Shown: positions 21,218-64,000 of the stretch, piece by piece
Layout of the letters: each line of letters starts with the position of its first letter
Position numbering within the stretch: the stretch's first letter is position 1
The notes under the pieces: generated by a model
What the model was told of the DNA's origin: nothing
What the model saw: only the letters and a program-made list of their open reading frames with translations
Database searches by the model: none
Assembly: GCF_947497045.1 (NCBI RefSeq)
Contig: NZ_CANMEU010000010.1
Coordinates: 62,001-126,000 of the forward strand
Direction of reading: 5' to 3'
Length of the DNA: 64,000 nt
From: an uncultured Tateyamaria sp.
GTDB lineage: Bacteria > Pseudomonadota > Alphaproteobacteria > Rhodobacterales > Rhodobacteraceae
Program-made: the position numbers and the translations under genes

Positions 21218-21818
21218 GCATAATCAAGCCTCAGATTCCGCGTATTGCTGCGTGATCCGTGCCGATCACATCAACCCGAACTGCGAGGTCCTGCGTGCTG
21301 AAGGCGACAGAAAGCGGGGCGAACAGCACATGGGCAAAGGACGAAGGCAGATCGCAGCGGGCAACACCATGGCTGCGGTAACGCAGGCATGCATCGCTCC
21401 CCGCCTTGGGCCTGAGGCAACAGCACTTCACCGGATTGAGTGATGCGGTGCCCCTTGGCCGAGCGATCAGACAGGCCCCGCATTGACGCATACCACCCCC
21501 GCAGCACGGCGCAAACCACCCACCCCGAGGATCGTCAGAGGGATGCACATGTTGACCCAGCCCATCATCCCTCATTTGTGCACGCGTGGATCGTTTTCGC
21601 TCCGATGCGGCGAAGTATTTCGCACAGAAACCCAAAAACGTTCGGATTTGCAGGTGCGATCACCACAGCCGTCACCACCCTTGCATCAAAACAAGCAGAT
21701 ATCCGCGTTCTCACGACAAGTTGGGCTGCCTGGGCCTGTTTTTGCCGCCTCGCCCGCACATATCCTACCGAACGTGGCTCGTGGGTCCCGCCCCTGCCAA
21801 CAGACCGGAGTATCGACA
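21218..21818. other. 601-bp region without a convincing gene
   Basis: Short frames exist on both strands, including a hydrophobic 33-codon minus-strand stretch near 21,570, but none has family similarity or sustained coding character. The last 12 bases contain the GGAG ribosome-binding site of egtB. Otherwise nothing was recognised. Confidence 0.5.
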
Positions 21819-23078: not shown

Positions 23079-24046
23079 CCATGACACTCGCCAATACCCC
23101 CTCTTTGCACAATGAAACAGCGCGCGCGTTCCTGCGTGATGCGATCCACGGGCTGACAGGCGCGCGCAAATCCCTGCCGCCCAAGTGGCTCTATGACCAT
23201 GCGGGCAGCGCCTTGTTCGAAGAGATCACTGGCCTGCCGGAATATTACCCGACCCGCACTGAGATCTCGATCTTGCGGGCCCATGCCGCCAACTTGGCGG
23301 GTTACATCTCTGAAGGCGGCGCGCTGGTCGAGTTGGGATCAGGCGCAAGCATCAAGACCCGGCTGCTGCTCGACGCGGGCCCGCATATCGCAGCCTACGT
23401 GCCAATCGATATTTCCGCCGCGTTCCTGCACGCCACAGCGGACGATTTGCACACCCGCTATCCACATCTGGCGGTACATCCCACGGTCGGGGACTTCGCC
23501 AACCCCATCGCACTGCCCGCCGCCTTGCACGACCTGCCCAAGGTTGGGTTTTTTCCCGGCTCGACCATCGGGAACCTCGACCCCCTGGATGCGATTGCCC
23601 TGCTGGTCCGCGCCCGCGCGTGGCCGGGGATCGAGACGTTCATCCTCGGGGCCGATCTGGTGAAGGACCCCCAGGTCCTGATCGATGCCTATGATGACAA
23701 GGCGGGTGTGACGGCCCGCTTCATCACCAACATCCTGACGCGGATGAACGCTGAATTGGGTGCTGATTTCGATGTGGACCGGTTTGACTACATCGCTGAG
23801 TGGAACGCGGACGCCGCACAGATCCAGATGTCATTGATGGCACAGGTCGATCATCACGTGTCGCTTGGCGGGCAGGACATTCGCTTTGCCAATCAAGAGT
23901 CCATCGCCGTCAGTCAGTCCCGTAAATATACGATGGACAGTCTGGAAAACCTTGCCGACGCCGCGGGGTGGGCCGTGCACGAGGTGGTGACCGACCCCGA
24001 AACCAACTTCGCGGTCGCTGTCCTGAAAGCACAAAGCCCTGTCTAG
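23075..24046 (+). CDS. egtD: EgtD, L-histidine N-alpha-methyltransferase
   Basis: A 323-residue SAM-dependent enzyme that trimethylates histidine to hercynine, the first step of ergothioneine synthesis. Diagnostic motifs are LYDHAGSALFEEIT, LPEYYPTRTE and the SAM site ELGSGASIKT. It overlaps egtB by ATGA. The two genes provide the core pathway; no egtA, egtC or egtE gene is present nearby, so the C-S lyase step must be encoded elsewhere. Confidence 0.93.
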   Translation: MTMTLANTPSLHNETARAFLRDAIHGLTGARKSLPPKWLYDHAGSALFEEITGLPEYYPTRTEISILRAHAANLAGYISEGGALVELGSGASIKTRLLLDAGPHIAAYVPIDISAAFLHATADDLHTRYPHLAVHPTVGDFANPIALPAALHDLPKVGFFPGSTIGNLDPLDAIALLVRARAWPGIETFILGADLVKDPQVLIDAYDDKAGVTARFITNILTRMNAELGADFDVDRFDYIAEWNADAAQIQMSLMAQVDHHVSLGGQDIRFANQESIAVSQSRKYTMDSLENLADAAGWAVHEVVTDPETNFAVAVLKAQSPV

Positions 24047-30288: not shown

Positions 30289-30493
30289 ATTGCCCGCTCC
30301 GATTGTATGCCTGTTCGTGTTAGCGTCCGACAGGCCAAAAAGTTCCACCACGTGTTAGCGCCAACTGTATACCATTGGACACCTTTATCGCTAACACTTT
30401 GTTTTTTCGCCCCTTTCAGGGTTCTCAGGCCAAGGTGTGACCGCTAAGAGTTCCGAAACACTTAACGCGGCGCGGCACGAAGGACCACGTTTT

Positions 30494-31495
30494 ATGACAG
30501 TCAAAGTTGGCATTAACGGGTTCGGGCGCATCGGGCGCTGTACCTTGTCCCACATCGTCACCTCCATGCGAAACGACATCGACGTGGTAGCCGTGAACGC
30601 GACGGGGCCGCTCGAAACCGCGGCCCATCTGATGAAATATGACAGCATTCATGGCCGGTTCCCAAACGATATCACGGTTGCGAACAACACCATGGATCTG
30701 GGGCGCGGCCCGATCCGGATGATGTCGACCTACGACATGAGCAGCCTCGATTGGGAGGGTGTGGATGTGGTTCTGGAATGCACCGGGAAATTCAATGACG
30801 GGCACAAGGCCGCCGTCCACATGGATCGCGGTGCGGGCAAGGTTCTGCTGTCCGCCCCGGGCAAGAACGTGGACAAGACCATCGTGTTCGGGGTCAACGA
30901 TAATCTGCTGGCGGCCAATGACCGAATGATCTCGAACGGGTCGTGCACCACCAACTGCCTGGCACCGCTGGCATCGGTGCTGGACACGGCATTCGGGATC
31001 GAACGCGGGGTGATGACCACGATCCACAGCTACACAGGGGACCAGCCAACCCTGGATCGCCGCCACGACGATCTGTACCGCGCGCGGGCGGCGGCGATGG
31101 CAATGATCCCGACCTCGACCGGGGCCGCCAAAGCACTTGGCGAGGTGTTGCCAAATCTTGCAGGCAAGCTCGATGGCACCTCCATGCGGGTGCCGACGCC
31201 CAATGTCTCGGCCGTGGATCTCACGTTCGAGGCGGGGCGTGATGTGACGGTCGAAGAGGTGAATGCGGCCATGGCAGACGCCGCGCGCGGGCCGATGGGC
31301 CGGGTGCTGGCCTATGACGACGAGGCAAAGGTGTCCGTCGATTTCAACCACACCGAACACTCGTCTATCTTTGCGCCCGACCAGACCAAGGTCGTGGGCA
31401 AGCGGTTGGTGCGGGTGCTGGCCTGGTATGACAATGAATGGGCATTTTCGGCCCGTATGGCGGATGTGGCCGTCGCGATGGGACGGCTGAACTAG
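30494..31495 (+). CDS. gap: Glyceraldehyde-3-phosphate dehydrogenase, paralogue 1
   Basis: A 333-residue GAPDH. The Rossmann start is INGFGRIGR, the catalytic Cys lies in SNGSCTTNC and the base His in TIHSYTGDQ. The residue after the second strand, which in NAD-specific enzymes is Asp (as NDL), is Ala here (VNATG). This suggests relaxed or NADP preference and perhaps an anabolic role, by inference. The start at 30494 was chosen because the family begins there. A second gap gene follows 351 nt downstream. Confidence 0.9.
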   Translation: MTVKVGINGFGRIGRCTLSHIVTSMRNDIDVVAVNATGPLETAAHLMKYDSIHGRFPNDITVANNTMDLGRGPIRMMSTYDMSSLDWEGVDVVLECTGKFNDGHKAAVHMDRGAGKVLLSAPGKNVDKTIVFGVNDNLLAANDRMISNGSCTTNCLAPLASVLDTAFGIERGVMTTIHSYTGDQPTLDRRHDDLYRARAAAMAMIPTSTGAAKALGEVLPNLAGKLDGTSMRVPTPNVSAVDLTFEAGRDVTVEEVNAAMADAARGPMGRVLAYDDEAKVSVDFNHTEHSSIFAPDQTKVVGKRLVRVLAWYDNEWAFSARMADVAVAMGRLN

Positions 31496-31573
31496 GCGCG
31501 CACACGGCTTGCAAGGATGAGGCGGTGCTGTCACAACGGCGCTGCCTTTTTCGTTTCAGGACCGCAGCGCGCC

Positions 31574-31717
31574 ATGACCAACCGCATCGCATTTTTCCTT
31601 GGGTTGATCATCGTGATCGCAATCGTTGTCGACGTGACACTGTACGGGAACGAACACCTTATTTTCCTTGCCAAAAAGCTGGCCGAACTGCTGGAATGGA
31701 TGGCTTTCTGGCGCTGA
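31574..31717 (+). CDS. Small single-pass membrane protein between gap genes
   Basis: A 47-residue protein starting MTNRIAFFLGLI with one strong hydrophobic helix (about residues 5-24) and a short amphipathic C-terminal tail ending WMAFWR. It lies between two GAPDH genes. Such short proteins in this position are, to my recollection, common in roseobacters. A longer frame starting at 31517 has no support. Function is unknown. Confidence 0.6.
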   Translation: MTNRIAFFLGLIIVIAIVVDVTLYGNEHLIFLAKKLAELLEWMAFWR

Positions 31718-31846
31718 GCAGACGGGCGGCGATCCGCCCTGCCCGGTTGACACCTCTGCCCAAATGGCGTTGTTAGCGATAACGGCACGCAACGCCAGAC
31801 GCGGCGTGCCTGAAACTGCATTCTGACACCAGATACGGGGGCTATC

Positions 31847-32851
31847 ATGGCCATCAAAGTTGCGATTAACGGATTTGGCCGCATTGGCCGCAATGTGCTG
31901 CGCGCGATCATCGAAAGCGGGCGGACGGATATCGAGGTCGTGGCGATCAACGATCTGGGTCCGGTCGAGACCAATGCACACCTGCTGCAATACGACAGCG
32001 TGCATGGCCGCTTTCCGGTGCAGGTCAAAACCGGCGCGGACAGTATCGATGTGGGCACCGGCCCGATCAAGGTCTCTGCGATGCGCAACCCTGCCGACCT
32101 GCCCTGGGGCCACGTGGATATTGTGCTGGAATGCACGGGCATCTTCACATCCAAAGACGCCTGCCAGGCACATCTGGAAAACGGGTCAAACCGGGTTCTG
32201 ATCTCGGCCCCTGGCACAAACGCGGATAAAACAATCGTTTACGGGGTAAACCACGATCAATTGTCGGGCGATGATGTGATCGTGTCGAACGCATCCTGCA
32301 CGACCAACTGCCTGACACCCGTGGCCAAGGTGTTGCACGACACGTTCGGCATCAAGCGCGGATTTATGACCACTGTGCACAGCTATACCGGCGACCAGCC
32401 GACGCTGGATACGATGCACAAGGACCTCTACCGCGCCCGCGCGGCGGCCCTGTCGATGATCCCGACCTCAACCGGGGCGGCCAAGGCCGTGGGCCTCGTA
32501 ATGCCCGAACTCAACGGCAAGCTGGACGGCGTTGCAATCCGCGTGCCCACGCCCAACGTGTCTTGTGTGGACCTGACAGTTGAGGTCGATGGCGATGTCA
32601 CCGCCGAGCAGATCAACACCGCGATGTCCGAAGCTGCGGCTGCCGGCCCTCTGAAAGGCGTGCTTGAGGTGACGGACGCGAAACTGGTGTCGATGGACTT
32701 CAACCACGACCCCCACTCGTCAATCTTTGCCACAGATCAGACCAAGGTCATGGGCGGCAACATGGTGCGGATCCTGTCGTGGTACGACAACGAATGGGGC
32801 TTTTCCAACCGGATGGGCGATACCGCTGTCGAGATGGGCAAATATCTGTAA
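31847..32851 (+). CDS. gap: Glyceraldehyde-3-phosphate dehydrogenase, paralogue 2
   Basis: A 334-residue GAPDH with INGFGRIGRN, catalytic Cys in SNASCTTNC and His in TVHSYTGDQ. Here the coenzyme-determining position keeps Asp (INDLG), consistent with NAD-dependent glycolytic use, in contrast to the upstream paralogue. It is followed within 25 nt by a strong intrinsic terminator that ends the gap region. Confidence 0.93.
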   Translation: MAIKVAINGFGRIGRNVLRAIIESGRTDIEVVAINDLGPVETNAHLLQYDSVHGRFPVQVKTGADSIDVGTGPIKVSAMRNPADLPWGHVDIVLECTGIFTSKDACQAHLENGSNRVLISAPGTNADKTIVYGVNHDQLSGDDVIVSNASCTTNCLTPVAKVLHDTFGIKRGFMTTVHSYTGDQPTLDTMHKDLYRARAAALSMIPTSTGAAKAVGLVMPELNGKLDGVAIRVPTPNVSCVDLTVEVDGDVTAEQINTAMSEAAAAGPLKGVLEVTDAKLVSMDFNHDPHSSIFATDQTKVMGGNMVRILSWYDNEWGFSNRMGDTAVEMGKYL

Positions 32852-50370: not shown

Positions 50371-51225
50371 TTACATACCTTGTGATACAGCAAAGCCGGT
50401 AAAGCCACTCAGGCCGAGGTCACCAAGATCGGTCAGCGCACCCGAGCCAAGATCGACCAGATAGAGACCCGCCGTATCTTCGCCGTCGATTTGCAACACG
50501 GCATAGGCCATATCAGTGCCCTCCGTGGGTGATACGATGTCAAAGCCACCGGCGTCGGTCACATCGACAGCCTTGCCATCAATCGTCAGCAGACCCACGG
50601 TTGCCAGCTCTCCTGCATTGTTGGCGAGCGTGACAAGCGTATTGGCACGGGCGTCCAGTGCATATTGGGCTGTGGATGCCGCCGTCGCCCCGGCGATTGC
50701 ATTCGTATATGCATTTGCAAAGATCAACGGATCGGCACCCACAGAACTGTCACCCTCCACATAGAATGCGTCCGAAAAGCGACGCACCGAATTGGCCCGT
50801 TCATCGCCATCACCGAACCCATCGGGGAAATAAACCAGGTTTGCCCCATCCGCACCCACTGCGCGCACAGCATCAATCTGGTTATTGAAGTCAAACGCGA
50901 CAGCGCCATCCCCGATTACGGCATCCTCCATGAAGGCGGCCCCAAGGTCCGTCAGCTTTCCGGTCATAAGATCAATGCTGTAGATCGCACCATCGGCATA
51001 GCCCAGGAGCTGCCCGGTCACGGGACGGTAGGCAATCGCGCGCACGGGCGTGTCCAGCGCAAACGTCTGGATCTGGTCAAGGGCTGCGATGTCGGCCATG
51101 GTGACAAGCGTGCTGCCGTTTTCGGCCAACGCATAGCCCTTGGTTCCGGCGTGCCCCATCGCCAAGGCCGGCGATGCCAGCGAAAGTGTCAGCACAGCGG
51201 CGGCGGCGGTCTTCTGGATCATCAT
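50371..51225 (-). CDS. DUF4394 domain secreted protein
   Basis: A 284-residue exported protein with a signal peptide ending near ALAMG. The mature part matches DUF4394, which looks like a beta-propeller-type repeat protein (PVRAIAYRPVTGQLLGYADG, GVLTIDG-type strands, YLVDLGSGALTDLG). The function is unknown. It is divergent from an ECF sigma factor gene with 113 nt between the starts, suggesting that it is a target of that sigma factor. Confidence 0.8.
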   Translation of the reverse strand: MMIQKTAAAAVLTLSLASPALAMGHAGTKGYALAENGSTLVTMADIAALDQIQTFALDTPVRAIAYRPVTGQLLGYADGAIYSIDLMTGKLTDLGAAFMEDAVIGDGAVAFDFNNQIDAVRAVGADGANLVYFPDGFGDGDERANSVRRFSDAFYVEGDSSVGADPLIFANAYTNAIAGATAASTAQYALDARANTLVTLANNAGELATVGLLTIDGKAVDVTDAGGFDIVSPTEGTDMAYAVLQIDGEDTAGLYLVDLGSGALTDLGDLGLSGFTGFAVSQGM

Positions 51226-51338
51226 GTTGTCGTCCTTTTCGGTTGCAATGACCTGCGCATTTGCAGATCGATTGCCTAAGTCACGTGGGATCGAGGACGA
51301 AAGTTTCAGCTGTGCGTCATTTTTTTTCTGATGGACCC

Positions 51339-51896
51339 ATGACAGGCGGAAAAACTCTGACTCCGGAATACGTTGAGGCCATGATTGCCAAATGCGCTTT
51401 GGGGGATCGCTCTGCGTTCGAGGCGCTTTATGAAGCGACCAGCGCGAAACTTTTTGCCGTTTGCGTCCGTGTATTGGGAAAGACGCCCATTGCGGAGGAC
51501 GCCATGCAGGACGCCTACATCAAGATCTGGAACAATGCCGGGCGCTACCGCGTAACTGGCCACTCGCCGATGACCTGGCTGATCACGGTCACACGCAACA
51601 CGGCCATCGACCGCTTGCGTGCGCAGCGCAGCCACAAGGATCTGGCAGACTATCACGATGTTCTGGCCGCCCCCGGCGCGACGCCCGAACAAGCGGCCAT
51701 CGCCGCGTCAGAGGCCGGTCGGTTGGCCGAGTGCATCTCCACTCTGCCACAGGACCGGGCAACCGCGATAAAGGGAGCCTACCTTGAGGGCTACAGCTAT
51801 TCTGACCTGGCCGACGCAGCCGGGGTGCCGCTCAACACCATGCGCACCTGGTTGCGGCGCGGATTGATCGCCCTGCGGGAGTGTATGAGCCAATGA
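51339..51896 (+). CDS. ECF-type RNA polymerase sigma factor
   Basis: A 185-residue sigma-70 family ECF factor. Region 2 includes FEALYEATSAKLFAVCVRVLG, AEDAMQDAYIKIW and SPMTWLITVTRNTAIDRLR. Region 4 shows AYLEGYSYSDLADAAGVPLNTMRTWLRRGL. It resembles the SigK-like group. The next gene encodes its anti-sigma factor and overlaps by 4 nt. The start MTGGKT at 51339 was preferred over a longer frame reaching into the intergenic region. Confidence 0.9.
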   Translation: MTGGKTLTPEYVEAMIAKCALGDRSAFEALYEATSAKLFAVCVRVLGKTPIAEDAMQDAYIKIWNNAGRYRVTGHSPMTWLITVTRNTAIDRLRAQRSHKDLADYHDVLAAPGATPEQAAIAASEAGRLAECISTLPQDRATAIKGAYLEGYSYSDLADAAGVPLNTMRTWLRRGLIALRECMSQ

Positions 51897-52585
51897 TCGA
51901 CAATCCGGACACAGATGACATGCTGGCTGCGGAATATGCTATCGGGCTTCTCGAAGACGCCGCCCTTGACGAGGCGCGCGAGCGTGCCATGTCTGATCCC
52001 GTCTTTGCCGCCCGCATCATAGAGTGGGAGGCGCGCCTGTCACAGATGGCAGACTTGAAGCCCGTGAACCCACCCGCCGCAGCGAAGGCAGCTGTGATCC
52101 GGCGTTTGTTTCCACAGGCACCCCATCTGTCATTCTGGAAGCGCGCAGGGCTGTGGCAGACCCTTACCGGTACCGGGGTCGCCGCACTTCTGTTGCTGGC
52201 CATTACCTCGTGGCAAGCCGGAGTGCCGCAACGGACCGGGCCGCTATACACAGCCGAAATCACATCGCAAACCGGTGACTTCCGCGTGGTGGCCGTTGTG
52301 GACAAGACGCGTAACGAGGTGATCCTGACCCGCACTGCCGGGGCGGCTCCTGCGGGGCGCATATTGCAGGTCTGGGCGCACGGACCGGATGAACCCGCCC
52401 AATCTGTTGGACTTTGGCCCGAAGGGGAGAGCGTCCGCCTGCCCTTGCCGCCTGAGATTGCAGCTGTTCAGGGCACCTTGACCTTAGGCGTGTCCGAAGA
52501 GCCACCTGGCGGCTCACCAACAGGCTTACCGTCAGGTCGGGTGTTTGGCACCGTCGGTATCCCGAACGTCTTGGACGCCATCTGA
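51893..52585 (+). CDS. RskA-type membrane anti-sigma factor
   Basis: A 230-residue single-pass membrane protein. The cytoplasmic N-terminus (LAAEYAIGLLEDAALDEARERA) resembles the anti-sigma domain of RskA. One membrane helix (about 88-106) is followed by the RskA C-terminal periplasmic domain (LVWAHGPDEPAQSVGLWP-like, with GRVFGTVGIPNV). It should hold the adjacent ECF factor inactive until an envelope signal triggers proteolysis. The ATG overlaps the sigma-factor stop (ATGA). Confidence 0.87.
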   Translation: MIDNPDTDDMLAAEYAIGLLEDAALDEARERAMSDPVFAARIIEWEARLSQMADLKPVNPPAAAKAAVIRRLFPQAPHLSFWKRAGLWQTLTGTGVAALLLLAITSWQAGVPQRTGPLYTAEITSQTGDFRVVAVVDKTRNEVILTRTAGAAPAGRILQVWAHGPDEPAQSVGLWPEGESVRLPLPPEIAAVQGTLTLGVSEEPPGGSPTGLPSGRVFGTVGIPNVLDAI

Positions 52586-53915: not shown

Positions 53916-55547
53916 ATGAGAAGAATACTTCTGGGTTTCGGGGCACTCGCATTTCTTGTTGTCGGAGCGTGGATTGGCGCGCGTCACGAGGTGACCTCGC
54001 AGGCGGTGCCCGTTGTTGCGCCCGGTGCGGGTGCCGCGGAACGCGGAGCGGCTGCTTTTGTCGGCGCGGCATTTGGCGGGTTGAGCCTGCAAGCCTTGGA
54101 AAGTCACGCGGTACCCTGGAAATTGATGACGGCAGCCCTTGTCCTTGAGGCGGTTGATCAGAGCCCAACGCTTTCAACCGACCGCGACACGCTGAATAAG
54201 GTGCTGACCTCATTCGGGTTTCTTGTGCAGGCCCGGATCAAGAATATGCCGGACGGTGTACCCGGCGCGCCGGGCGCGTTGCCACTGGGTGTGACACATG
54301 GGGTGATCTCTCCGATGGTGGGGCTGCCGGTACATGTGGCCAATCTGGGATGCGCGGCCTGTCATGCCGGTGTGACCTACGGCGCTGATGGTGTCCCCGA
54401 CCCCGCCGCCGCATGGATTGGGATGCCCAACAGTTCCCTGAACCTCGAAGCCTATACACAGTCCATTTTTCGAACACTCAAAGCCTATCAACAGAGGCCG
54501 GATCTGTTGATCGAAACGGTTATGGCGCTGCATCCCGATACAGGCTGGCGCGAGCGCCAAACGTTGCGATGGCTGATCTTGCCGTTGGTCGGTGCGCGGC
54601 TGGATCAGATCGACGACGATCGTGCACTGCCTTTCGTCAATGGGGTTCCGGGCAGCACCAACGGGGTTGCCGCGCTCAAACATGTGTTTGGGGTACCGTT
54701 TCTCGGGGCTGACCTTGCCGATGCGGGTATCGTCTCTATTCCGGACCTTGGATACCGGCACTGGCGCAGCAGTCTGCTGGTCGACGGAGCCTATGCCATC
54801 CCGCAAACCGAACGACAAACCGAGACAACGGCCGTGGACAATACGGCCGAAAAGCGGACCGCTTTGGCGACAATCACGACATTCTTTACGGTACCCAGCA
54901 TGGGCGTTCACCCAAGCACGGCAATTCAGTCCATCCCCGTAGCCGAAGACATCCTTGCCTTTCTGGATAAAACCTACAGACCGCAACCCTTTCCCGGCGT
55001 GATTGATCGCGATCTGGCCCTGAGAGGGGCGGCAGTCTACGGGGAGCAGTGCAGCAGCTGTCATGGCACCTATACCGTTGCAGGGGTGTTGCCAGACATC
55101 ATTTCGTTCCCGAACTGGCTTGGCGATGTTGGTACCGATCCGCTCAGGGCGCAGACCTTCACGCAAGACCTTGTCGCTGTCTTTGAGGACACGGCCTATC
55201 GCGATCAAATCGCCGTTGAACGCACTGGGGCCTATGCCGCGCCGCCACTGAGTGGCATATGGGCCTCGGCCCCGTATCTGCATAACGGAACGGTCCCGAC
55301 CATATGGCACTTGCTGACACCCGAGGCCCGACCAGAGACGTTTGAACTGGGCGGGCACATGCTCGACTTCTCGCGTTTGGGGCTGAAATTGGAAGACGGG
55401 CGATATCCGCGAGATTACATCCCCTTTTCCACGCCGGTCGTTCTGGACACAGGCCAACCGGGTCTGAGCAGCAAGGGGCATGCGTTTGGTGCAACGCTGA
55501 GCGAGGCGGACAAGACCGCTTTGATCGAGTTTCTCAAACAGCTTTAG
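53916..55547 (+). CDS. Dihaem c-type cytochrome, peroxidase/RoxA-like
   Basis: A 543-residue exported protein with an N-terminal signal anchor and two haem c sites, CAACH (146-150) and CSSCH (379-383). The C-terminal part has PPLSGIWASAPYLHNGTVPT, a hallmark shared by bacterial dihaem peroxidases and the RoxA/RoxB rubber oxygenases. It should act in the periplasm as an oxidase, peroxidase or electron carrier. It is convergent with the nitroreductase gene; the stops overlap by 4 nt (TTAG). Which of these activities it has cannot be told from sequence. Confidence 0.75.
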   Translation: MRRILLGFGALAFLVVGAWIGARHEVTSQAVPVVAPGAGAAERGAAAFVGAAFGGLSLQALESHAVPWKLMTAALVLEAVDQSPTLSTDRDTLNKVLTSFGFLVQARIKNMPDGVPGAPGALPLGVTHGVISPMVGLPVHVANLGCAACHAGVTYGADGVPDPAAAWIGMPNSSLNLEAYTQSIFRTLKAYQQRPDLLIETVMALHPDTGWRERQTLRWLILPLVGARLDQIDDDRALPFVNGVPGSTNGVAALKHVFGVPFLGADLADAGIVSIPDLGYRHWRSSLLVDGAYAIPQTERQTETTAVDNTAEKRTALATITTFFTVPSMGVHPSTAIQSIPVAEDILAFLDKTYRPQPFPGVIDRDLALRGAAVYGEQCSSCHGTYTVAGVLPDIISFPNWLGDVGTDPLRAQTFTQDLVAVFEDTAYRDQIAVERTGAYAAPPLSGIWASAPYLHNGTVPTIWHLLTPEARPETFELGGHMLDFSRLGLKLEDGRYPRDYIPFSTPVVLDTGQPGLSSKGHAFGATLSEADKTALIEFLKQL

Positions 55548-56533
55548 AGGATAAGCGCGTCGACGGAGCGTCGCGCAGGAGGGAACGGGGCATGCGGCGG
55601 GCGGTGCCCGATCCGAAAGGCGGAAACGATGCGGCGGTCCTTGGGCAATTCCGCCATCCCGGCCAAAGCCTCGGCGCTCGTCAGATCATCGGCCAGAGCG
55701 GTGAGCACAGAGGCCCCGAAACCAGCAGCTTCGATCCTGAGCCAGGCCCGGTAGAAGGCGCGACCGCTCACAAACGGGTCTTCGCCCTTGGGGCGGTGAA
55801 ATACCACGATGGCGGTTGCGGCAGCCGTCTTTTGTTCCTCAGACAGCAGTTTTTCCGCAAGACCGCAGGCTAACAAAGGGCGAAATCCAAAGCCCAGCAA
55901 CACTTTCGCGCCGATCCTTTCAAAGAACCCCAGTCGCATCGCATCGGCATTCAGGCCGTCGCGCGCCCAATTCGGATGACTGCGCCGCAATCGCATCCAC
56001 GAGACAAGCTCTGTGCGAAAGTCATCCCGTCTGGTGAACGTGAAACTGGCCGTATCCAGCAGTTTCGCAATGAGCCGGATCATTTCAGAAGCTGTGAACA
56101 CGTGGCAATCTGCATCAGCAAGTGTCTGTGCGACTTGGCGGCCTTCATCCGTTGGGGCTTTGAACGCACCGCGCCAGCTTTGCCGGGTGATCACATGCCG
56201 GGCCAGCGCATCCCCTTGTGGGGTGCCGGCGGTCTCCGGAGCGAAAGTCAGTCGGGCGATGGGGCGCATGTCGCTGGTGCCGTCATCCGTCACCAGATCG
56301 TGCGATATGCGCAATCCTTCCTGCGCCGCAGCCAGCACCATCCCCTCAAGCGCCGCACCCAGGCTCATCGCGGCATCATGGCCTGTGGGATCTGCGGCAG
56401 GCAGGCGCACCTTGTGGTCTTCGAACAACCAAATCCGATCCCCCTCAAGCTTCCAGCGGGCCGGTTGAACGTTGTGAACACTGGGGGCCAGACTGGCCCG
56501 CGCAACCAGCTGCCGGAACAAATCAGGCGTCAT
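55544..56533 (-). CDS. Nitroreductase-fold flavoprotein (Acg-like)
   Basis: A 329-residue protein of the nitroreductase superfamily, closest in style to the Acg group (SLAPSVHNVQPARWKLEG at the N-terminus, SMGAALEGMVLAA-like helix, GFGASVLTAL). Acg-type proteins can bind FMN or only sequester it. It is the last gene of the operon 60632-55544 and overlaps the acetyltransferase stop-start by 4 nt. By analogy with other E1-nitroreductase pairs it could oxidise a peptide or acyl product, by inference. Confidence 0.72.
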   Translation of the reverse strand: MTPDLFRQLVARASLAPSVHNVQPARWKLEGDRIWLFEDHKVRLPAADPTGHDAAMSLGAALEGMVLAAAQEGLRISHDLVTDDGTSDMRPIARLTFAPETAGTPQGDALARHVITRQSWRGAFKAPTDEGRQVAQTLADADCHVFTASEMIRLIAKLLDTASFTFTRRDDFRTELVSWMRLRRSHPNWARDGLNADAMRLGFFERIGAKVLLGFGFRPLLACGLAEKLLSEEQKTAAATAIVVFHRPKGEDPFVSGRAFYRAWLRIEAAGFGASVLTALADDLTSAEALAGMAELPKDRRIVSAFRIGHRPPHAPFPPARRSVDALIL

Positions 56534-57615
56534 GTCAGGTCTTTCCTGAACAAATGAAGGCGATGCAACGGGGTGGCCCCGATCTTGGACATCATTCGTA
56601 GGGACGCCTGATTTTCGTCCGCAATCCAGGTGATGCCAAGCTGTTCATAACCAGCCCCGCGCAGTTGCGTGAGGGTTCGCGAAAGCATTGCGCTCATCAG
56701 GCCGCGCCCGTGGCACGACTTGGCAACGGAGTAGAAAATGATCACTGCACGTTTGCGCCGCAGCCGGAAGCGCAGGAAGTGAAACGGGGTCATCAGTGTA
56801 AAGCGCGAGCGTGTCGCCTTGAGAAAGCCGTTGAGATCGGGAATGCAGATCACGACGCCGACGGGCTCATCACCCTTGGCCAGAACCGCGGACAGTCGGG
56901 GGTCGATAATGCTCATCATCTCACCCGCCTGAAAGTTGAATTCCCCGGCTGTCAGGGGCACGAACATCGCATTGTCCGAAAACCCGTCATTGAGCACCTG
57001 CCTTGCCTCTTCCATACGTGCGGCGAAGGTTTTGCGCCGGACCGGGGCGAAAGCACAGTCCGTTTCCAGCTGTAACGGGGGTATTTTGGCCTTGGCCAGA
57101 TCCAGCTCAAACGTGGTCACAGGAAAGACGGGTACAAAACCGTTCTGGCGCAAAAGCCTTGGAATATGCGGCGGGTTCACGACCATGTCGGTATAGGCTT
57201 TGCGCTCAAAATGGTCAGTCTGCACGCCCATCTGCTGCATCGCCGTGAGGTTGAAATTCCCGACAAGTTCTTCGTGCCCCTTGCTTCGGGCCCATCCTTC
57301 GGCCTTGTCCAGCAAGGCCCTGGCAATCTCGGTGTCATCAGCACAGTCAAAGAAACCGAACGAGGCGTGTTTGGTCCCGTAAAGCTTGTTTGAGGCGATA
57401 TGATCATGCACCACGATCCGTCCCAACGGGATCCCGTCGCGAAAGGCGGTGAAATAGTTGAAGACCTCGTTGCTTGGGAAAAGCGGGTTTGTACCTGCGA
57501 TCAAGGCACGCTTAAGGTCAGACTTCAGCGGAGATACATAAGGCGTGCTGTCCTCATAGGCCTGAAACGGGACCTCGAAGAATGACGCAAAATCGCGTTC
57601 GACGATCTCAATCAT
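56530..57615 (-). CDS. Large GNAT-type acetyltransferase
   Basis: A 361-residue protein of the two-lobed GNAT family, with GRIVVHDHIASN, ASFGFFDCADD and a C-terminal acetyltransferase core (GRGLMSAMLSRTL and ENQASLRMMSKIGA). The acceptor is unknown. The start at 57615 overlaps the membrane-protein stop by 8 nt, and its stop overlaps the nitroreductase start, so translation of the operon is coupled. Confidence 0.72.
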   Translation of the reverse strand: MIEIVERDFASFFEVPFQAYEDSTPYVSPLKSDLKRALIAGTNPLFPSNEVFNYFTAFRDGIPLGRIVVHDHIASNKLYGTKHASFGFFDCADDTEIARALLDKAEGWARSKGHEELVGNFNLTAMQQMGVQTDHFERKAYTDMVVNPPHIPRLLRQNGFVPVFPVTTFELDLAKAKIPPLQLETDCAFAPVRRKTFAARMEEARQVLNDGFSDNAMFVPLTAGEFNFQAGEMMSIIDPRLSAVLAKGDEPVGVVICIPDLNGFLKATRSRFTLMTPFHFLRFRLRRKRAVIIFYSVAKSCHGRGLMSAMLSRTLTQLRGAGYEQLGITWIADENQASLRMMSKIGATPLHRLHLFRKDLT

Positions 57616-58816
57616 GCGATGCGTCCCGCTCGGCCAGAAGGACTGCGAGCCGCTGTGCAATCCGCAATTCCAGTTCCAGTTGCCGCGATTGGGCGAGCGC
57701 GGGCACATTCAGCGCCATGGTGCGAAGCGGGTCCTTGGACACCAACATAACATGGCTGGCTTCGAATTTGCGAAAGAACCATGCAAACTGCTCGGAGAGC
57801 TTTGGATTGCCAAGCAGGTCCAGATCTTTCGAGGACACGACGCCACGGCGGATCAGGTGATCTTTGAACACCGCATCGAAATCCCCCAGACTATCAGCGT
57901 TCAGGATCAACGCGCCCGAGGTCAACGCCCTCGTTTGAAGCGCCTGCAAGAACGCATCATGGCTGCTCAGACCATCGTCGGCCAAGACATCAAGCACCCG
58001 CCCGACCTTGACCTCGCGCCTGATCAGCCGGGCCTGATAGAAGATCAAGGCCAGCAAACCCACACTGACGACAATCGCCATCACCTGCACCGTTGTGCGC
58101 ACATCAAGCCCGGCGAGTTCCATGATGCAGAGCGACGCAATAGCGAGACCCGCAGCAAGTGCCGCGGTGGCCGAGACGACTTCGGATTGCGTCGCATCAC
58201 TGCGGCGAAGCGTCAGGCCAAGCCAGCACATGGCCAGAATGGCAATACCTGACAACCGCACCGGAAAGTCCAGAAACTCGGTTCGGAAATCCGATATGGT
58301 CAGTGGCACGATCAGGGCGAGGGACAGTGCCAGCCGGTCGATTGTCGTGTTTTCCGCCACCGACAGGCTTTTCCTGTCTCGCGCCAGAACAAGGACGGTC
58401 AGTGCTACAACAGTCAGGACTTGAAAGCCCGCCAGCGAAATAATGGCCAAAAACGCCTGAGTTGGTGGTGTCACCGCGGCCACAACCGCAAAGACAAGCG
58501 CCCCGACAGCGGCCCATGCCTTCAGGATGAGCGGCGCGTGCCGGCGCAGCAATGCCTCGACCACCAGGAGCATCGCAAGCGGGACGAGGCCGGCAAAGGC
58601 AAAGGTCAAACGCCCGATCCCTTCTGCACCCGTAAGCCATTGCAAAAGCCGGATGGCCAACAGCGCGGCCACGACCTGGATCGCAAATAGAAACCGCCTT
58701 GTCAGCACGGTTCTGGGGCGCTGCATGCGCAATACCTGCCCGAACAGCGCCAGACCAAACAGGCTTGCCAACGTAACAACACTGTCGGCAATCAATTCCG
58801 GCGAAAAGCCCGTCAT
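57608..58816 (-). CDS. Polytopic membrane protein, unrecognised
   Basis: A 402-residue protein with about eight to nine hydrophobic helices in the first 260 residues and a soluble C-terminal region of about 140 residues. No family is recognised. The layout (multi-helix N-terminus plus cytoplasmic tail with VLDVLADDGLSSHDAF) recalls 7TM-type sensors, but no kinase or cyclase signature is present. It overlaps the ThiF-like gene upstream and the GNAT gene downstream, so it belongs to the same operon and may sense or anchor the system. Confidence 0.6.
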   Translation of the reverse strand: MTGFSPELIADSVVTLASLFGLALFGQVLRMQRPRTVLTRRFLFAIQVVAALLAIRLLQWLTGAEGIGRLTFAFAGLVPLAMLLVVEALLRRHAPLILKAWAAVGALVFAVVAAVTPPTQAFLAIISLAGFQVLTVVALTVLVLARDRKSLSVAENTTIDRLALSLALIVPLTISDFRTEFLDFPVRLSGIAILAMCWLGLTLRRSDATQSEVVSATAALAAGLAIASLCIMELAGLDVRTTVQVMAIVVSVGLLALIFYQARLIRREVKVGRVLDVLADDGLSSHDAFLQALQTRALTSGALILNADSLGDFDAVFKDHLIRRGVVSSKDLDLLGNPKLSEQFAWFFRKFEASHVMLVSKDPLRTMALNVPALAQSRQLELELRIAQRLAVLLAERDASHD

Positions 58817-59682
58817 GCCATCATGCGTCGCAAAAAGCGGGTGACGACGGGCCGCAGCACCGCTGCCGTGATAGGATTGCGTGGATGTTCGACCCGCGCA
58901 GCGTAGGGGTTAAAAAACCACCCACGGTGGTCCGCACCCGGCGGACGCCCCAGAATGCCATTGACCACTTCATAGGCCATCAGCATCCCGGTCGAGATCA
59001 CCATGGGTGCAAAAGACATGCGGCTGCGTTTACCGGCTGTGACTTCACCAGCCAGCTCAAGGTCGATGTAGCGGCGCGAAGAAGAATGCAACACCACATA
59101 GGTCGCCTCTGCAAAAAAGGCGCTCTCGCGTTGCGCCTGGCTGAGTGCATCCCAAGCGGTGCCAATGGTTGGATATCCCAACCGTTCTTCCGGCATCGGA
59201 TCTTTTGGCTGCGTCACAAAGACGGATGGCAGCGGAGAGGCATAGGCGTCGATCACGGCACGTTCAGCCTCGCGCGATTGGCGGTACAGCAAAAGTGATG
59301 CACCAAGGTCGTCTGTCCCGTTGACGACGATTTTGCTGTCTGCCACAGCGCTTTGCACATGGTCCGGCCACTCGTCCCGATAGACCGTGATCTCCATCTC
59401 GGGATTGATTTGCAGGCACAGATCGCGCGTGGCCTCGGCTTTTTGCCCCCCGATGGTGTCACGAAAGGCAAAGACCTGCCGGTTCATGTTCGATGTCTCG
59501 AACGCGTCGATATCCGCAAGGATCAGTCGCCCGACACCCATGCGCGCCAGCCCCATGACACAAGCGCCCCCCATGCCGCCCGTGCCACACACAAAAACCT
59601 GTGCCGCACGCAGGCGGGCTTGTTCCTCTGGCGTTACAAACCCGATATTGCGGTTTGTGAAATCATCGTAGGAAAAGGTCAA
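58813..59682 (-). CDS. E1/ThiF-family adenylyltransferase
   Basis: A 289-residue E1-like enzyme. The ATP-binding motif is CGTGGMGGA (32-40), followed by ADIDAFETSNMNRQ (56-69), with the acidic and Asn/Arg/Gln residues used for adenylation by ThiF, MoeB and ubiquitin E1. It should activate a C-terminal carboxylate as an acyl adenylate. It has only three cysteines (32, 41, 89), none at the usual thioester position, and no zinc CxxC pairs, so adenylation without transthiolation is likely. The start overlaps the preceding acetyltransferase-like gene by ATGA. Confidence 0.85.
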   Translation of the reverse strand: MTFSYDDFTNRNIGFVTPEEQARLRAAQVFVCGTGGMGGACVMGLARMGVGRLILADIDAFETSNMNRQVFAFRDTIGGQKAEATRDLCLQINPEMEITVYRDEWPDHVQSAVADSKIVVNGTDDLGASLLLYRQSREAERAVIDAYASPLPSVFVTQPKDPMPEERLGYPTIGTAWDALSQAQRESAFFAEATYVVLHSSSRRYIDLELAGEVTAGKRSRMSFAPMVISTGMLMAYEVVNGILGRPPGADHRGWFFNPYAARVEHPRNPITAAVLRPVVTRFLRRMMA

Positions 59683-60632
59683 ATCGGGTCCTTTCGCGGG
59701 CGCAACGTGCCAAAATGCCGGTTGCTGTCGAACCAGTGCAGTGCGGGCAGGATCACCCGTTGCAGCATCAAGGCCACCAGGGTCACACCGACACTGGCAA
59801 GAGACGCCCGGGGCACCGAATTCTTCAGATAGCCACTGGCCGTCGCCAGATCGATCTGTCCAAGCTGCAATACGTCATCACCCCGGTCGTAGTCCAACAG
59901 GTTCTGACAGAACTCGTTGTAAATAGCATTGCGGTGGTGGGGGGCTTCCTCAAAGGTCTTCTTTAGATCGTCCGAGCCTCCGGTATAGGCATTGGTGATG
60001 ACAAAGCGGTCTTCATCAAACCCGGCATCGGCCCCTACCCCGAAAACGTACCGGTGCTCTGCCATGATCGTGCGCGCCAGCAGGAGATGCTGCAAGGATC
60101 TCTCCTTGGACCGCCGGGGCGTTGGGAATACATCGTCAAAGGTCTCCGCGACCATGCCCACAATGGCAGGCACCTGCGTGACGTTTGACACCCAAAGCGG
60201 ACGCATCTGATTGCGAAACAACAACAAGATGCAGGTCAGACCGTACAGAACCCACGACAATCCCTGCGATTGCTGGTCTGGATCCACCATGACCAACCCC
60301 AGATGCAACACCTCCATCGGCTCCGTCATCGTCGTGATATCCATCAGAGCCAGCGCGTTGAATGCGACTGGCTGCCGGGTGTCCTTGCGGCGTACAATCG
60401 TGACAATCGTGGACTTCAGCCGTTCCGGATCACCTGAAAACACGCCATAGGTCAATGACCCACGCGCGAGCGTTTTCGAAGCGACCGTAACAAGATCAGC
60501 CGACAGCGACGCCAATTCCTCCTGTGACATCCACAGCCCCGGACGCTCGACAATCCGCGTTTCAAAATGTTTGCCCGTGGACAGGGTCAAATCGAGCCGT
60601 GGCTGAAACAATGCGCGCACAAACCCGGACAT
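59679..60632 (-). CDS. Acetyltransferase-like protein heading the ThiF operon
   Basis: A 317-residue protein I do not recognise with certainty. The segment LHLGLVMVDPDQQSQGLSWVLYGL resembles the acetyl-CoA loop of GNAT or N-acyl-amino-acid synthase enzymes. A hydrophobic stretch near the C-terminus (LASVGVTLVALMLQ) may associate with membrane. The start at 60632 has AAGGA 8 nt upstream and is preferred over the extended frame to 60686. It is the first gene of a five-gene unit with overlaps at every junction. Confidence 0.58.
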   Translation of the reverse strand: MSGFVRALFQPRLDLTLSTGKHFETRIVERPGLWMSQEELASLSADLVTVASKTLARGSLTYGVFSGDPERLKSTIVTIVRRKDTRQPVAFNALALMDITTMTEPMEVLHLGLVMVDPDQQSQGLSWVLYGLTCILLLFRNQMRPLWVSNVTQVPAIVGMVAETFDDVFPTPRRSKERSLQHLLLARTIMAEHRYVFGVGADAGFDEDRFVITNAYTGGSDDLKKTFEEAPHHRNAIYNEFCQNLLDYDRGDDVLQLGQIDLATASGYLKNSVPRASLASVGVTLVALMLQRVILPALHWFDSNRHFGTLRPRKDPI

Positions 60633-61141
60633 AAACAGATCCTTCAAAGCCTTTGGCCAGCACAGGGTTTGTCCCTTTGCGCTCAACGCCCGAGCCTAAA
60701 TCTGGCACCATGCTGATCGCAATATCTTTATTCGTGCAGACGGGTTTATTCTTTGCAAAGCGCGATGTTCTTGTAGCAGTCGCGGTCTCACTCATATCCA
60801 GTTGCGCCCCTGGGACAGGACGTTGTGCTGCGAGTGATGTAACGTACGGTACGTAAAGCCGCGTACGGTCCCCGTAGGCCTCTCGCTGCTTCGCCTTATT
60901 GCTACGGCGATTTTTTTCCGATAACGCCCGGTGCGGAAATGCCCCACGTGGCCATTCAGACCATAGTGCATGGAATGTGTGCTGGCAAAGCATCCACCTG
61001 CCGCCAGATTGATGTTTCCGACGCTGTCTCGGGCAGTTGATCTGGCAAGGCGATCCTCAAAGGGGATGTACAGATATGATCAGCGATTTCAGGTGCGGAA
61101 CCTTTGGCATCGTCTGCCTTCGGTGATGGGGTGTGGACCTG
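60633..61141. other. Operon promoter region
   Basis: A 509-bp region upstream of the ThiF operon. It contains the palindrome at 60842-60854 described separately and several short frames. A 77-codon minus-strand frame starting at about 60,795 overlaps the operon's first gene and is not supported. Nothing else was recognised. Confidence 0.5.
60842..60854. promoter_or_regulatory. Palindromic operator candidate ACGTAC-G-GTACGT
   Basis: A perfect 6+1+6 inverted repeat about 210 nt upstream of the first gene of the ThiF operon. A partial third copy (GCGTACGGT) lies at 60861-60869. Such repeats are typical of TetR- or MarR-type regulators. No regulator gene is adjacent, so the assignment is inference. 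Confidence 0.5.
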
Positions 61142-62200
61142 TCAAGACGCACCGCCGAACAGCCTTCGCCCAATCCGCATCAGGCCGGATTCACGGACTG
61201 GCGCAGTATGGGGTTTCGACGGCAGAAAACTGTCTATCGATATCTGATCGGGCTCGGCACCGAGCCTGATAATATCCCTTTGACAACTCTCAACCATCAC
61301 AGGCGGCCCCGCGGCAAAGATCCGATGCTGTGACAGGCTGGCATAATCCTGAGCAACCGCAGGCCCTATGAAACCTGTGCGATATGTTGTCGTCTCATCC
61401 GCTTCCGACAGAATGACGGACAGCCGGAAATTGGGTCCCGCCTTCAAGAGGTCACTTAGCGCATCATTTGCAAAGACATCCTCGCCGGTGCGGGTGCCGA
61501 AATACATGTGGCAGGGTATATGTGGTGCCATTTCCACGAGGTGCTTCGCCATGGAGATCAGCGGCGCAATCCCCGTTCCTCCGCCCAGCAACAGGATCGG
61601 ACGATCGGGTATATCCGACAGGCAGGATGAACCGAACGGTCCGTCCAGACAAATCCGGGTGCCTGCTGGCAGACCTTTGGCGATCATCGGGCTGACGCAG
61701 CCGTCCGGCAGAACCTTTATATAGAATGTCTGTTCATTTTGGGCTGACGTCGTGGCGGGCGAATAGCTGCGCGCAGGTTTACCCGGCAATGACAGATCAA
61801 AATACTGCCCGGGATGAAACTCCAGTGGGGTCAGCGGCCTCAACCGAACTGCCACGACATCCCGCGTTTCTTGCGTCACTGCGATCACCTCGGCCCGATA
61901 TCGGCACGGCGCAATGGTTGGTGCGCCAAGAGGTTCGGGGAACCGGATTTCGAGTGGCCCTCTTGCCTTTGATCGACAGGCGAGGATCCAGCCATTCGCA
62001 GCTTCCTCCTGACTCAGTGTCCCGGCAATATGTGGCAGGCACGTGACCTCACCACTGAGGAGCTGGCATTTGCAGCTGCCACAGTCGCCCGATCGGCATT
62101 GGTTGGGAATTGGAACGCCGGCCTCAAGCCCGGCCTCCAGAAGTGTTCCCTTGTTCAAAGGCACCTTGTGGGGCCAGTTTGCAATCCGAAGATGTGGCAT
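61142..62200 (-). CDS. 2Fe-2S ferredoxin-NAD(P)H flavin reductase
   Basis: A 352-residue electron-transfer reductase. The N-terminal plant-type ferredoxin domain has ligands Cys35, Cys40, Cys43 and Cys75 (CRSGDCGSC...LAC). An FAD domain follows with RSYSPATT, and an NAD domain with LLLGGGTGIAPLIS. It resembles reductases of ring-hydroxylating oxygenases and of CDP-deoxysugar pathways. It starts 3 nt after the cytochrome b fusion gene, so they probably pass electrons between NAD(P)H and a membrane or periplasmic redox partner. Confidence 0.87.
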   Translation of the reverse strand: MPHLRIANWPHKVPLNKGTLLEAGLEAGVPIPNQCRSGDCGSCKCQLLSGEVTCLPHIAGTLSQEEAANGWILACRSKARGPLEIRFPEPLGAPTIAPCRYRAEVIAVTQETRDVVAVRLRPLTPLEFHPGQYFDLSLPGKPARSYSPATTSAQNEQTFYIKVLPDGCVSPMIAKGLPAGTRICLDGPFGSSCLSDIPDRPILLLGGGTGIAPLISMAKHLVEMAPHIPCHMYFGTRTGEDVFANDALSDLLKAGPNFRLSVILSEADETTTYRTGFIGPAVAQDYASLSQHRIFAAGPPVMVESCQRDIIRLGAEPDQISIDSFLPSKPHTAPVRESGLMRIGRRLFGGAS

Positions 62201-62203
62201 GGG

Positions 62204-63856
62204 CTACTCCAGTTCCACGACGACCGGATAGAGATGGCGCGTGTGGCGGGTCTGCGCGTGATCGAAGGCTGCCACCCAAAGATAGGTTGGCGCATCCGGC
62301 AAGAAGGCCACATCATATTCCGAGCCGGTGTCCAGCTTACGCCTCACCTCCATCGTCCAGACACCATTTTCCCAATGCGAGACAGCTGTGACGTCGCCGC
62401 GATCACCTTCCATCGGCGCGTCAACGATGACAGCAGGCAGGATCGTTCCGACGGGAAAGTTCTCAAGCGTGTCGAGCGCAGGATCGTAGGGCACCGTCTC
62501 GCTTTCGCGCAAAAACAGCCCAATGTCATCGCCCGCGTCTGGGGCCAGATTGACCTGCTGAAATTGGGAAAGCATCGACGGATCACGGGGCAACGCGACG
62601 GGGGTGACCAGATCGTCCGAGTATTCCTCCCAATTCATGGCATATCCGCCACCATCCTTGGGGTCCTTGCTGTAACCGCCAGTGTAGCGCCCCTCGCCCT
62701 TGGGAACCATTGGCGGGCCGAAATAGTTGTCGTCAATCTGATTCATAACGGTGTTGCCGGTCCGCACTGACTTCCAGTGCCAGACATCGACCACACTGCC
62801 ATCGGTCGTATAGTGCAGACCTCGCCCGCCCGAAGGCTCCGGCGCGTTATCAAGCGGTTGCGGGCCAAGGTGGATCGAATGATCCCCGGCAATGCCGCCG
62901 CCGCGGGACAGCATCACGCCAAACTTGTCTTCGTAGTAGTCGTCTTCGTCTTGTATGCTGAATTCGGATTGTTGCACTTGCCAACCGGCTTCGGTCCTCA
63001 CAAGCGGCAGGTGCTTCTGGCTGCGCGTGGCATCCTCCCATTGCAGCAGGACATAGATGTCTGTGCCGTCATGGAGCGCGCGAACAGTCACATCGGTGAC
63101 GCCTTCATCAGAGTTTGCACCGCGTGTCGTGGTAACGGTCACGGGTGCCGCAATGCCCCAGCTTGCATCATCGGGATTGCCGTCCAGATCGGGCAGTTCA
63201 TCCGTGCGCATAACCATCAGGTTCTCGGACGCGGTCCGCTCGAGCGTCATCATCATGGCTGCGGCTGCCGTTCCCGCAATCACAGCGCCCCCGGCCGCGA
63301 TCCCGAAAGCAGGGGTCGGGCGAAAAATCTTCAAGAGCTGCGAGACGCCGCCCATGAAGGCAAGTGCTGCGACATGCACCACCATGTAGGCGGGCAACAC
63401 CCAGGCTGCATATTCGTGAACCATGGCAGCGAGCGGATAGGCCATCAGGCCGGGCAAGACACCCATGGCCAGTCCCGTGATCAACGCAACAATCAGCGCC
63501 GCAAACGCCACCCAGTAGATCAACACATTCAGCGCCCGCCACCAACCTCTGGCGTCAGTCCCGCCCATGATGTCGGTACGCCATGATCGGTTCAAAGCGA
63601 TCCTGCCCCAAAGCCCGGCACGCCAGATAAAAACCGCATAGGCCGCGAACAGCGCGACAAATCCAACGGCGGAAATCAAATGCCAGAAGATGACATTGCC
63701 CTGTGGCAGGAGGCCCGAAAAATTGCTCGCGAAACTTGATTGCGGCATATCCGCAGCAATGCGCAACCCGGTGAACAGACTTACGCTCAGGGCCGTAATA
63801 AGCAACCAGTGGACCGCGAAAGTGAAAAAATCGGATCGTGGCTTTTGACGAGCCAT
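62204..63856 (-). CDS. Cytochrome b561-like membrane domain fused to ethylbenzene-dehydrogenase gamma-like haem domain
   Basis: A 550-residue protein. Residues 1 to about 190 contain four to five membrane helices with paired histidines (AVHWLLITAL, FWHLISAVGF, MVHEYAAWVL, YMVVHVAAL) of a cytochrome b domain. The rest, after a further helix, resembles the EB_dh family (PDLDGNPDDASWGIAAPVTV, YVLLQWEDATRSQKH, DYYEDKFGVM), which binds a b haem in the periplasm. The start at 63856 was chosen for a GGAGGAG site 8 nt upstream; 63862 is possible. It forms a two-gene unit with the reductase. Confidence 0.82.
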   Translation of the reverse strand: MARQKPRSDFFTFAVHWLLITALSVSLFTGLRIAADMPQSSFASNFSGLLPQGNVIFWHLISAVGFVALFAAYAVFIWRAGLWGRIALNRSWRTDIMGGTDARGWWRALNVLIYWVAFAALIVALITGLAMGVLPGLMAYPLAAMVHEYAAWVLPAYMVVHVAALAFMGGVSQLLKIFRPTPAFGIAAGGAVIAGTAAAAMMMTLERTASENLMVMRTDELPDLDGNPDDASWGIAAPVTVTTTRGANSDEGVTDVTVRALHDGTDIYVLLQWEDATRSQKHLPLVRTEAGWQVQQSEFSIQDEDDYYEDKFGVMLSRGGGIAGDHSIHLGPQPLDNAPEPSGGRGLHYTTDGSVVDVWHWKSVRTGNTVMNQIDDNYFGPPMVPKGEGRYTGGYSKDPKDGGGYAMNWEEYSDDLVTPVALPRDPSMLSQFQQVNLAPDAGDDIGLFLRESETVPYDPALDTLENFPVGTILPAVIVDAPMEGDRGDVTAVSHWENGVWTMEVRRKLDTGSEYDVAFLPDAPTYLWVAAFDHAQTRHTRHLYPVVVELE

Positions 63857-64000
63857 TAGCATCTCCTCCCTCAAAACTCTGCAATTGCCCCAAGCATCGT
63901 TGTGCAGAGCAACGTCCGTCAACTTCACCCCAGATATTCGGCGGAGCGGCGCTGGAGGTTTCAAGTTCAGAGACCCAAAGGCACAGCGAAAGGCAATGAA

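Follow-up and report, generated by a model that had tools for sequence, protein, structure and literature searches.

Oxazolone lipids are made by pathways that combine an acyltransferase, a ThiF-like protein and an oxidase of the nitroreductase superfamily. In mycobacteria, TyzA N-acylates amino acids, TyzB (ThiF) cyclises the product and TyzC, the oxidase, desaturates it to give acyl-oxazolones; TyzA is structurally similar to acyl-homoserine lactone (AHL) synthases and FeeM, and OxzA has the same scaffold despite low sequence identity (PMC10404671). A second pathway comprises TrzA and the fusion protein TrzS, with ATP-dependent cyclisation followed by O2-dependent desaturation, and in the relevant ThiF subclusters oxidase or acyltransferase genes neighbour most nodes (PMC12856293). 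OxzAB of Pseudoalteromonas rubra is a further oxazolone-lipid pathway in which, according to the papers citing it, ThiF and oxidase are fused as in TrzS, and the same three enzyme classes occur in clusters for N-acyl-tyrosine and N-acyl-dehydrotyrosine (PMC12479983). In this study, we analyzed a stretch of 64,000 nucleotides (nt) from an uncultured Tateyamaria sp. (contig NZ_CANMEU010000010.1, assembly GCF_947497045.1), hereafter the window, focusing on an operon of five overlapping genes. By a modest degree we favour lipid biosynthesis as its role: it would work like the oxazolone-lipid pathway and yield an unusual amino-acid lipid.

Organization and conservation of the operon

The genome containing the window amounts to 4.24 Mb in 54 contigs. 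The five open reading frames (ORFs) of the operon are uninterrupted and all lie on the minus strand, running from 60632 to 55544 in the order AT, E1, MEM, GNAT2 and NTR. These genes and the convergent gene CYT are listed below (aa, amino acids).

59679..60632, minus strand: AT, 317 aa, GNAT-fold protein with a C-terminal hydrophobic helix, proposed membrane-anchored N-acyl amino acid synthase
58813..59682, minus strand: E1, 289 aa, ThiF-like adenylating enzyme with a TTG start, proposed to activate and cyclise the N-acyl amino acid carboxylate
57608..58816, minus strand: MEM, 402 aa, polytopic membrane protein with eight hydrophobic segments and a C-terminal soluble domain
56530..57615, minus strand: GNAT2, 361 aa from the ATG at 57615, acetyltransferase-family protein (PF00583) with a role tied to E1
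55544..56533, minus strand: NTR, 329 aa, Acg-type nitroreductase-superfamily flavoprotein, proposed O2-dependent desaturase
53916..55547, plus strand: CYT, 543 aa, c-type cytochrome with two CxxCH motifs, similar to RoxA and cytochrome c peroxidase, convergent with NTR, probable sixth member

AT and E1 overlap by 4 nt (TTGA, the E1 start codon being TTG as read from the sequence), E1 and MEM by 4 nt (ATGA), MEM and GNAT2 by 8 nt (ATGATTGA) and GNAT2 and NTR by 4 nt (ATGA). The preliminary description of this DNA, which had reported five overlapping minus-strand genes at 55544..60632, was correct in this respect; its list lacked the convergent c-type cytochrome gene at 53916-55547 (+), which recurs beside the operon. 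Inspection by eye showed GTACG-type motifs repeated at 60830-60880 of the window, in the intergenic space before AT; they may form a regulator site.

Species genomes were scanned with an E1 alignment, and the best 80 of 122 confirmed stretches were used as E1 loci. The order AT-E1-MEM-GNAT2-NTR was found in 55 of them, AT-E1-MEM-NTR in 16 and AT-E1-MEM in three, while six other orders occurred once each; several short loci end at contig edges. One locus (L188) consists of AT-E1-NTR alone on a 6-kb contig without GNAT2, a tyz-like minimum, and another (L112) has the order E1-GNAT2-NTR. AT overlapped E1 in 70 of the 76 loci measured, by exactly 4 nt in 51, a measurement that takes the start codon closest to the upstream stop and is therefore biased to overlaps. 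Most locus titles were alphaproteobacterial (Rhodobacterales, Rhizobiales, relatives of Caulobacter and Sphingomonas, and a metagenome-assembled genome (MAG) of Acetobacteraceae), with Lysobacter sp. MMG2, a Legionellales MAG and two Gemmatimonadota MAGs as outliers. The closest E1 proteins among named loci came from Roseobacter sp. (84%) and Yoonia (80%). Because the same order is present in 55 of the 80 loci and the overlaps recur, the five-gene set is more than a chance association, and the co-occurrence across Proteobacteria that had been proposed as a check was indeed found. AT was also detected in ten plasmid records, and the three annotated ones that were opened list the five genes in order as hypothetical protein, ThiF family adenylyltransferase, hypothetical protein, GNAT family N-acetyltransferase and hypothetical protein; no match to AT was found in the phage records searched.

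Relationship of E1, NTR and AT to oxazolone-lipid enzymes

E1 matched PF00899 with 108.3 bits. Its adenylation-site residues (GxGGxGG, D59, N65, R68, Q69, K81 and D124) are present and invariant across ten homologues, and E. coli ThiF aligns to E1 over residues 18-147, the stretch holding them. Cysteines are found only at positions 32, 41 and 89, of which Cys32 alone is invariant among the 10 homologues, and CxxC is absent, in agreement with the earlier statement that E1 has an adenylation site and no zinc cysteines. Membership of the ThiF fold family would also suit an E1 serving protein modification or a ubiquitin-like system; the missing CxxC, the NTR and GNAT partners, which do not fit such a system, and the lack of any ubiquitin-like or ThiS-like partner among the five operon proteins (Pfam and NCBIfam searches of the operon only) make this explanation highly improbable. 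The same searches found no YcaO protein among the five, and nothing among them supported the peptide-modifying or cyclodehydratase role suggested previously.

NTR matched PF00881 (28.6 bits). The nearest NCBIfam model was the Acg-like NF047509 (Acg/Rv3131), at a sub-threshold 154.6 bits against a cut-off of 199, and the NTR profile matched the Acg structure 2ymv (1.5e-16). Against NF005901, the Rv1355c/TrzS family with a cut-off of 476, NTR reached 58.3 and E1 37.5 bits, and nothing in the genome of the window scored above that cut-off.

For comparison, 274 genomes of the class to which Lysobacter belongs were searched with the ThiF-NTR model PRK14851; 25 matched at E<=1e-50, none above the cut-off, and 20 of the 25 loci were read. 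At least seven of the 20 hold ThiF-NTR fusions as judged by our profiles. E1 (residues 1-265) matched the ThiF domain of seven fusions with a profile probability of 99.7, and NTR matched their second domain with 97.2. One acyltransferase cluster was present in nine of the 20 loci, directly adjoining the ThiF gene in eight; its four scanned members were TIGR03694, and the three of these scanned with Pfam were FeeM-type. No MEM or GNAT2 match was found among the ORFs picked in these loci, a picking that also missed some ThiF genes. A separate protein of 723 aa (P0285) carries NTR followed by ThiF, the reverse of the order in the gammaproteobacterial fusions. In a tree of 56 E1 and ThiF rows, including 22 of the 102 operon rows, the operon E1s form one clade (99/99), and 20 gammaproteobacterial ThiF proteins group with two alphaproteobacterial ones (95/95, with bootstrap not settled and long branches); the tree is unrooted and does not tell which group E1 is nearest to.

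Neither AT nor MEM had a trusted match in Pfam or NCBIfam. The predicted fold of AT is GNAT-like, with BjaI among its matches, and AT lies immediately upstream of E1 in 78 of the 80 E1 loci; in P0242, AT and E1 are fused in a single frame as one predicted protein. A total of 2805 AT homologues were found, and the named ones among the best 120 are called hypothetical or uncharacterized. Of the two acetyltransferase-like proteins of the preliminary description, GNAT2 has a family match (PF00583, 39.5 bits) and AT is GNAT-like by predicted fold, with no family name.

The operon shares several traits with oxazolone pathways: a gene for a GNAT/AHL-synthase-fold acyltransferase adjoining a ThiF gene, a putative ThiF-like cyclase with intact adenylation residues that is related to the ThiF part of OxzB-type proteins, and an Acg-like flavin-dependent oxidase of the nitroreductase superfamily. 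AT falls outside TIGR03694/FeeM, a trait that is not strictly defining, the identity between TyzA and OxzA being low (PMC10404671). An oxazolone-type lipid pathway is favoured because the published pathway has the same three enzyme classes, unfused in TyzA/TyzB/TyzC, because E1 and NTR are profile homologues of the gammaproteobacterial fusions, with FeeM/TIGR03694 acyltransferases adjoining in eight of the 20 loci, and because of the fold of AT, its adjacency to E1 and the P0242 fusion. Judging from homology, fold and context, AT, together with MEM, would N-acylate an amino acid at the membrane. E1, with its conserved adenylation site, would adenylate the carboxylate, after which the amide oxygen would close the oxazolone ring, and NTR, by homology, would desaturate the alpha-beta bond of the amino acid with O2. 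Its association with E1 suggests GNAT2 as an E1-dependent tailoring enzyme acting on, or together with, the E1 product. As a guess, MEM may hold or move the product and the RoxA-like CYT may have the product or peroxide as its substrate, at a site outside the cytoplasm.

The AT-MEM pair, GNAT2 and the neighbouring genes

A sample of 292 genomes of the order, including that of the window, was used to examine how the genes occur together. MEM was present in 27 genomes, AT in 28 and operon-type E1 (E<1e-100) in 12; the additional AT, in G018, is an incomplete match that contains stops. The regions around the 26 other MEM genes contained the five-gene set in four cases (in addition to the window), AT-E1-MEM-NTR in six, AT-MEM-NTR in three and AT-MEM in 13. 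In one of the last group (G032), E1, GNAT2, NTR and CYT are clustered on another contig without MEM, with a 132-base AT remnant beside E1, and the intact AT and MEM lie on a different contig; matching positions suggest that G032 and L112 (Yoonia sp. F2084L) are the same genome. AT and MEM occur without operon-type E1, NTR or GNAT2 in 12 of the 27 genomes, among which weaker nitroreductase matches (61-99 bits) were found in four and a distant GNAT2 match (119 bits) in G086. NTR was present in all 12 E1-positive AT+MEM genomes, versus three of the 15 E1-negative ones. AT and MEM form a core pair. Going by its predicted structure, AT looks like a new, unnamed family of GNAT-fold acyltransferases, with MEM as its fixed membrane partner.

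Among the same 27 AT+MEM genomes, GNAT2 was found in 12 of 12 E1-positive and 0 of 15 E1-negative genomes (Fisher p 6e-8, uncorrected for relatedness; the distant match in G086 left out of the count). All six genomes with the four-gene order AT-E1-MEM-NTR have a full-length GNAT2 outside the operon (580-598 bits); its neighbouring genes are common to five of the six, and in G083 it lies tail-to-tail with a cytochrome gene, about 110 nt apart. This strict tracking of E1 in the genomes tested is the reason for the proposed role of GNAT2 in connection with the E1 product. Distant GNAT2 paralogues were seen in two Sphingomonadales genomes (L249 7121-8170 (-) and L250 7505-8611 (+)), where they adjoin genes labelled by eye as desaturase-like (His-box) and LptF/G-like, surroundings suggesting that these paralogues are a lipid-modifying family.

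This strict link is an argument for the main rival explanation, in which E1 activates the carboxylate of the AT product, as an adenylate or oxazolone, and GNAT2 transfers it to another amine or alcohol. The outcome of their joint action would be a new amide or ester, the oxazolone would be an intermediate, and the end product would be a dipeptide-like or diacyl amino lipid. The link holds even where GNAT2 stands outside the operon, one unit holds both genes in 55 of the 80 loci, and acid, methanol and ethanol all react with oxazolones (PMC12856293), which can thus serve as activated acyl groups. We regard this rival as possible though rather unlikely, since GNAT2 matches acetyltransferase GNAT families (PF00583) by sequence and L188 has no GNAT2 on its contig, though the gene could sit elsewhere. 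Alternatively, GNAT2 rather than AT could be the N-acyl amino acid synthase feeding E1, with AT and MEM making another membrane lipid or a signal. The 12 genomes with AT and MEM alone, in a sample where GNAT2 and not AT tracks E1, agree with this proposal, as does the acetyltransferase family match of GNAT2; it appears improbable in view of the position of AT directly before E1 in 78 of the 80 loci, the AT-E1 fusion P0242 and the pairing of AT with E1 and NTR in L188. Some of the same patterns speak for the oxazolone-type pathway, namely the AT-E1-NTR content of L188, the separation of E1-GNAT2-NTR-CYT from AT and MEM in G032 and the GNAT2-E1 tally. In a bolder and doubtful scheme, amide or ester lipids would be made without a template, and the oxazolone that E1 makes from an N-acyl amino acid would be the activated acyl donor for a dedicated partner, GNAT2; the route would be built on the new membrane-anchored AT+MEM pair, itself an independent lipid system, and completed in many lineages by the RoxA-like haem protein.

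The 3' end of CYT overlaps that of NTR by 4 nt (tail-to-tail). CYT contains a RoxA-like segment (PF21419, 76.2 bits) and two CxxCH motifs and scored 133 bits against the dihaem cytochrome c peroxidase model NF040606 (cut-off 150). It resembles RoxA, RoxB, RoxC and dihaem cytochrome c peroxidases in the PF21419 segment and differs from them in falling below all four NCBIfam cut-offs (NF050033, NF050034, NF051462 and NF040606). By tblastn (E<=1e-15), CYT was present in 29 of the 80 E1 loci; the tail-to-tail spacing was -14 to +26 nt in the 25 measured, and in four (L115, L175, L176 and L184) the gene was placed otherwise or further away. All 29 loci have GNAT2, and none of the 20 loci without GNAT2 has CYT (p 3e-5, uncorrected for relatedness). 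In the order sample at E<=1e-40, CYT was found in four of the 292 genomes, which are four of the 12 E1-positive and none of the 280 others; the copy in G083 (42% identity) is located apart from the operon. CYT is a probable sixth member of the gene set. The place of CYT is taken in 15 of the 80 E1 loci by a convergent downstream gene resembling acyl-[acyl carrier protein]-phospholipid O-acyltransferase; the titles of all 15 are of Rhizobiales type, and examples are L261 13167-16565, L262 12285-14933, L114 and L125. The two genes never occurred in the same locus, save for a weak 33% match in L110.

Upstream of the operon, at 61142-63964 (-), lie a 2Fe-2S/FAD/NAD reductase gene (Pfam) and a gene for a 586-aa membrane protein, labelled by eye as resembling cytochrome b with a haem-binding part; the scan of the operon loci gave no match to either gene at E<=1e-15. 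Elsewhere in the window, the following were noted by eye: a sigma-factor-like and anti-sigma-like pair beside a secreted-looking protein (51261-52585 and 50371-51225), a tandem pair of glyceraldehyde-3-phosphate dehydrogenase-like genes (30437-32851), an EgtB/EgtD-like pair, possibly for ergothioneine biosynthesis (21483-24046), and a 927-aa protein with a kinase-like domain flanked by long, probably helical regions (14729-17512 (-)).

Comparison with known systems

Several observations weigh against an oxazolone-type role. The likeness to Oxz, Tyz and Trz is by enzyme class and by the profiles of gammaproteobacterial fusions, not by direct sequence comparison. NTR scores below the cut-off of each NCBIfam model it matched, and E1 reached 115 bits with PRK08223, whose cut-off is 266. 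A strong E1 profile match would be expected from any ThiF-fold relative, and in the unrooted tree the E1 clade is separate from the gammaproteobacterial ThiF domains (99/99). AT showed no sequence kinship with OxzA-like acyltransferases (hhalign probability 0.1 against eleven TIGR03694/FeeM-type proteins from gammaproteobacterial loci), so its proposed activity rests on a fold common to very many acetyltransferases. The 12 genomes with AT and MEM alone show that the core pair may yield something other than an oxazolone, the published three-enzyme pathway does not explain the strict E1-GNAT2 link, and eight of the 12 E1-positive genomes lack CYT at E<=1e-40.

Among the described systems, the tyrazolone pathway TyzABC is similar to the operon in having the acyltransferase, the ThiF-like cyclase and a single-domain oxidase as unfused proteins; counterparts of MEM, GNAT2 and the cytochrome are not described in the available text, which places a transporter gene, mmpL9, nearby (PMC10404671). 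The available main text of that paper and of PMC12856293 contains neither 'cytochrome' nor 'membrane protein', and MmpL9 (PMC10404671) is the sole transporter named. The tryptazolone system TrzAS shares the acyltransferase, ThiF and oxidase chemistry and differs in that ThiF and oxidase are fused (PMC12856293). In OxzAB and the gammaproteobacterial loci, E1 and NTR have profile homologues in the two domains of the fusions, whereas here they are encoded by separate genes, and the acyltransferases there are of the TIGR03694/FeeM type, which AT does not match. The stieleriacine, thalassotalic acid and kyonggic acid clusters also contain genes for an N-acyl amino acid synthase, ThiF and a nitroreductase, with short or overlapping junctions in two producers, as in the operon; according to the paper, no oxazolone of these families was observed, the Stieleria clusters hold methyltransferase genes, and the available text describes no counterparts of GNAT2, MEM and the cytochrome (PMC12479983).

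The preliminary description knew of no named system with this set. Since the acyltransferase, ThiF and nitroreductase are the published Oxz/Tyz/Trz classes, that combination is already known as the oxazolone-lipid pathway (PMC10404671, PMC12856293); no description of the full combination including MEM, GNAT2 and the cytochrome was found in the literature searched, in so far as the cited papers were available, and this part of the novelty stands. The operon spreads the enzyme classes of oxazolone lipids, whose physiological role is still an open question (PMC12856293), over Alphaproteobacteria and outliers, and its natural split variants permit clean genetic tests of the part of each gene in marine and soil bacteria. 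To the known three-enzyme systems, the locus adds an unnamed GNAT-fold family, a fixed membrane partner, a second GNAT linked to E1 and a co-conserved haem protein.

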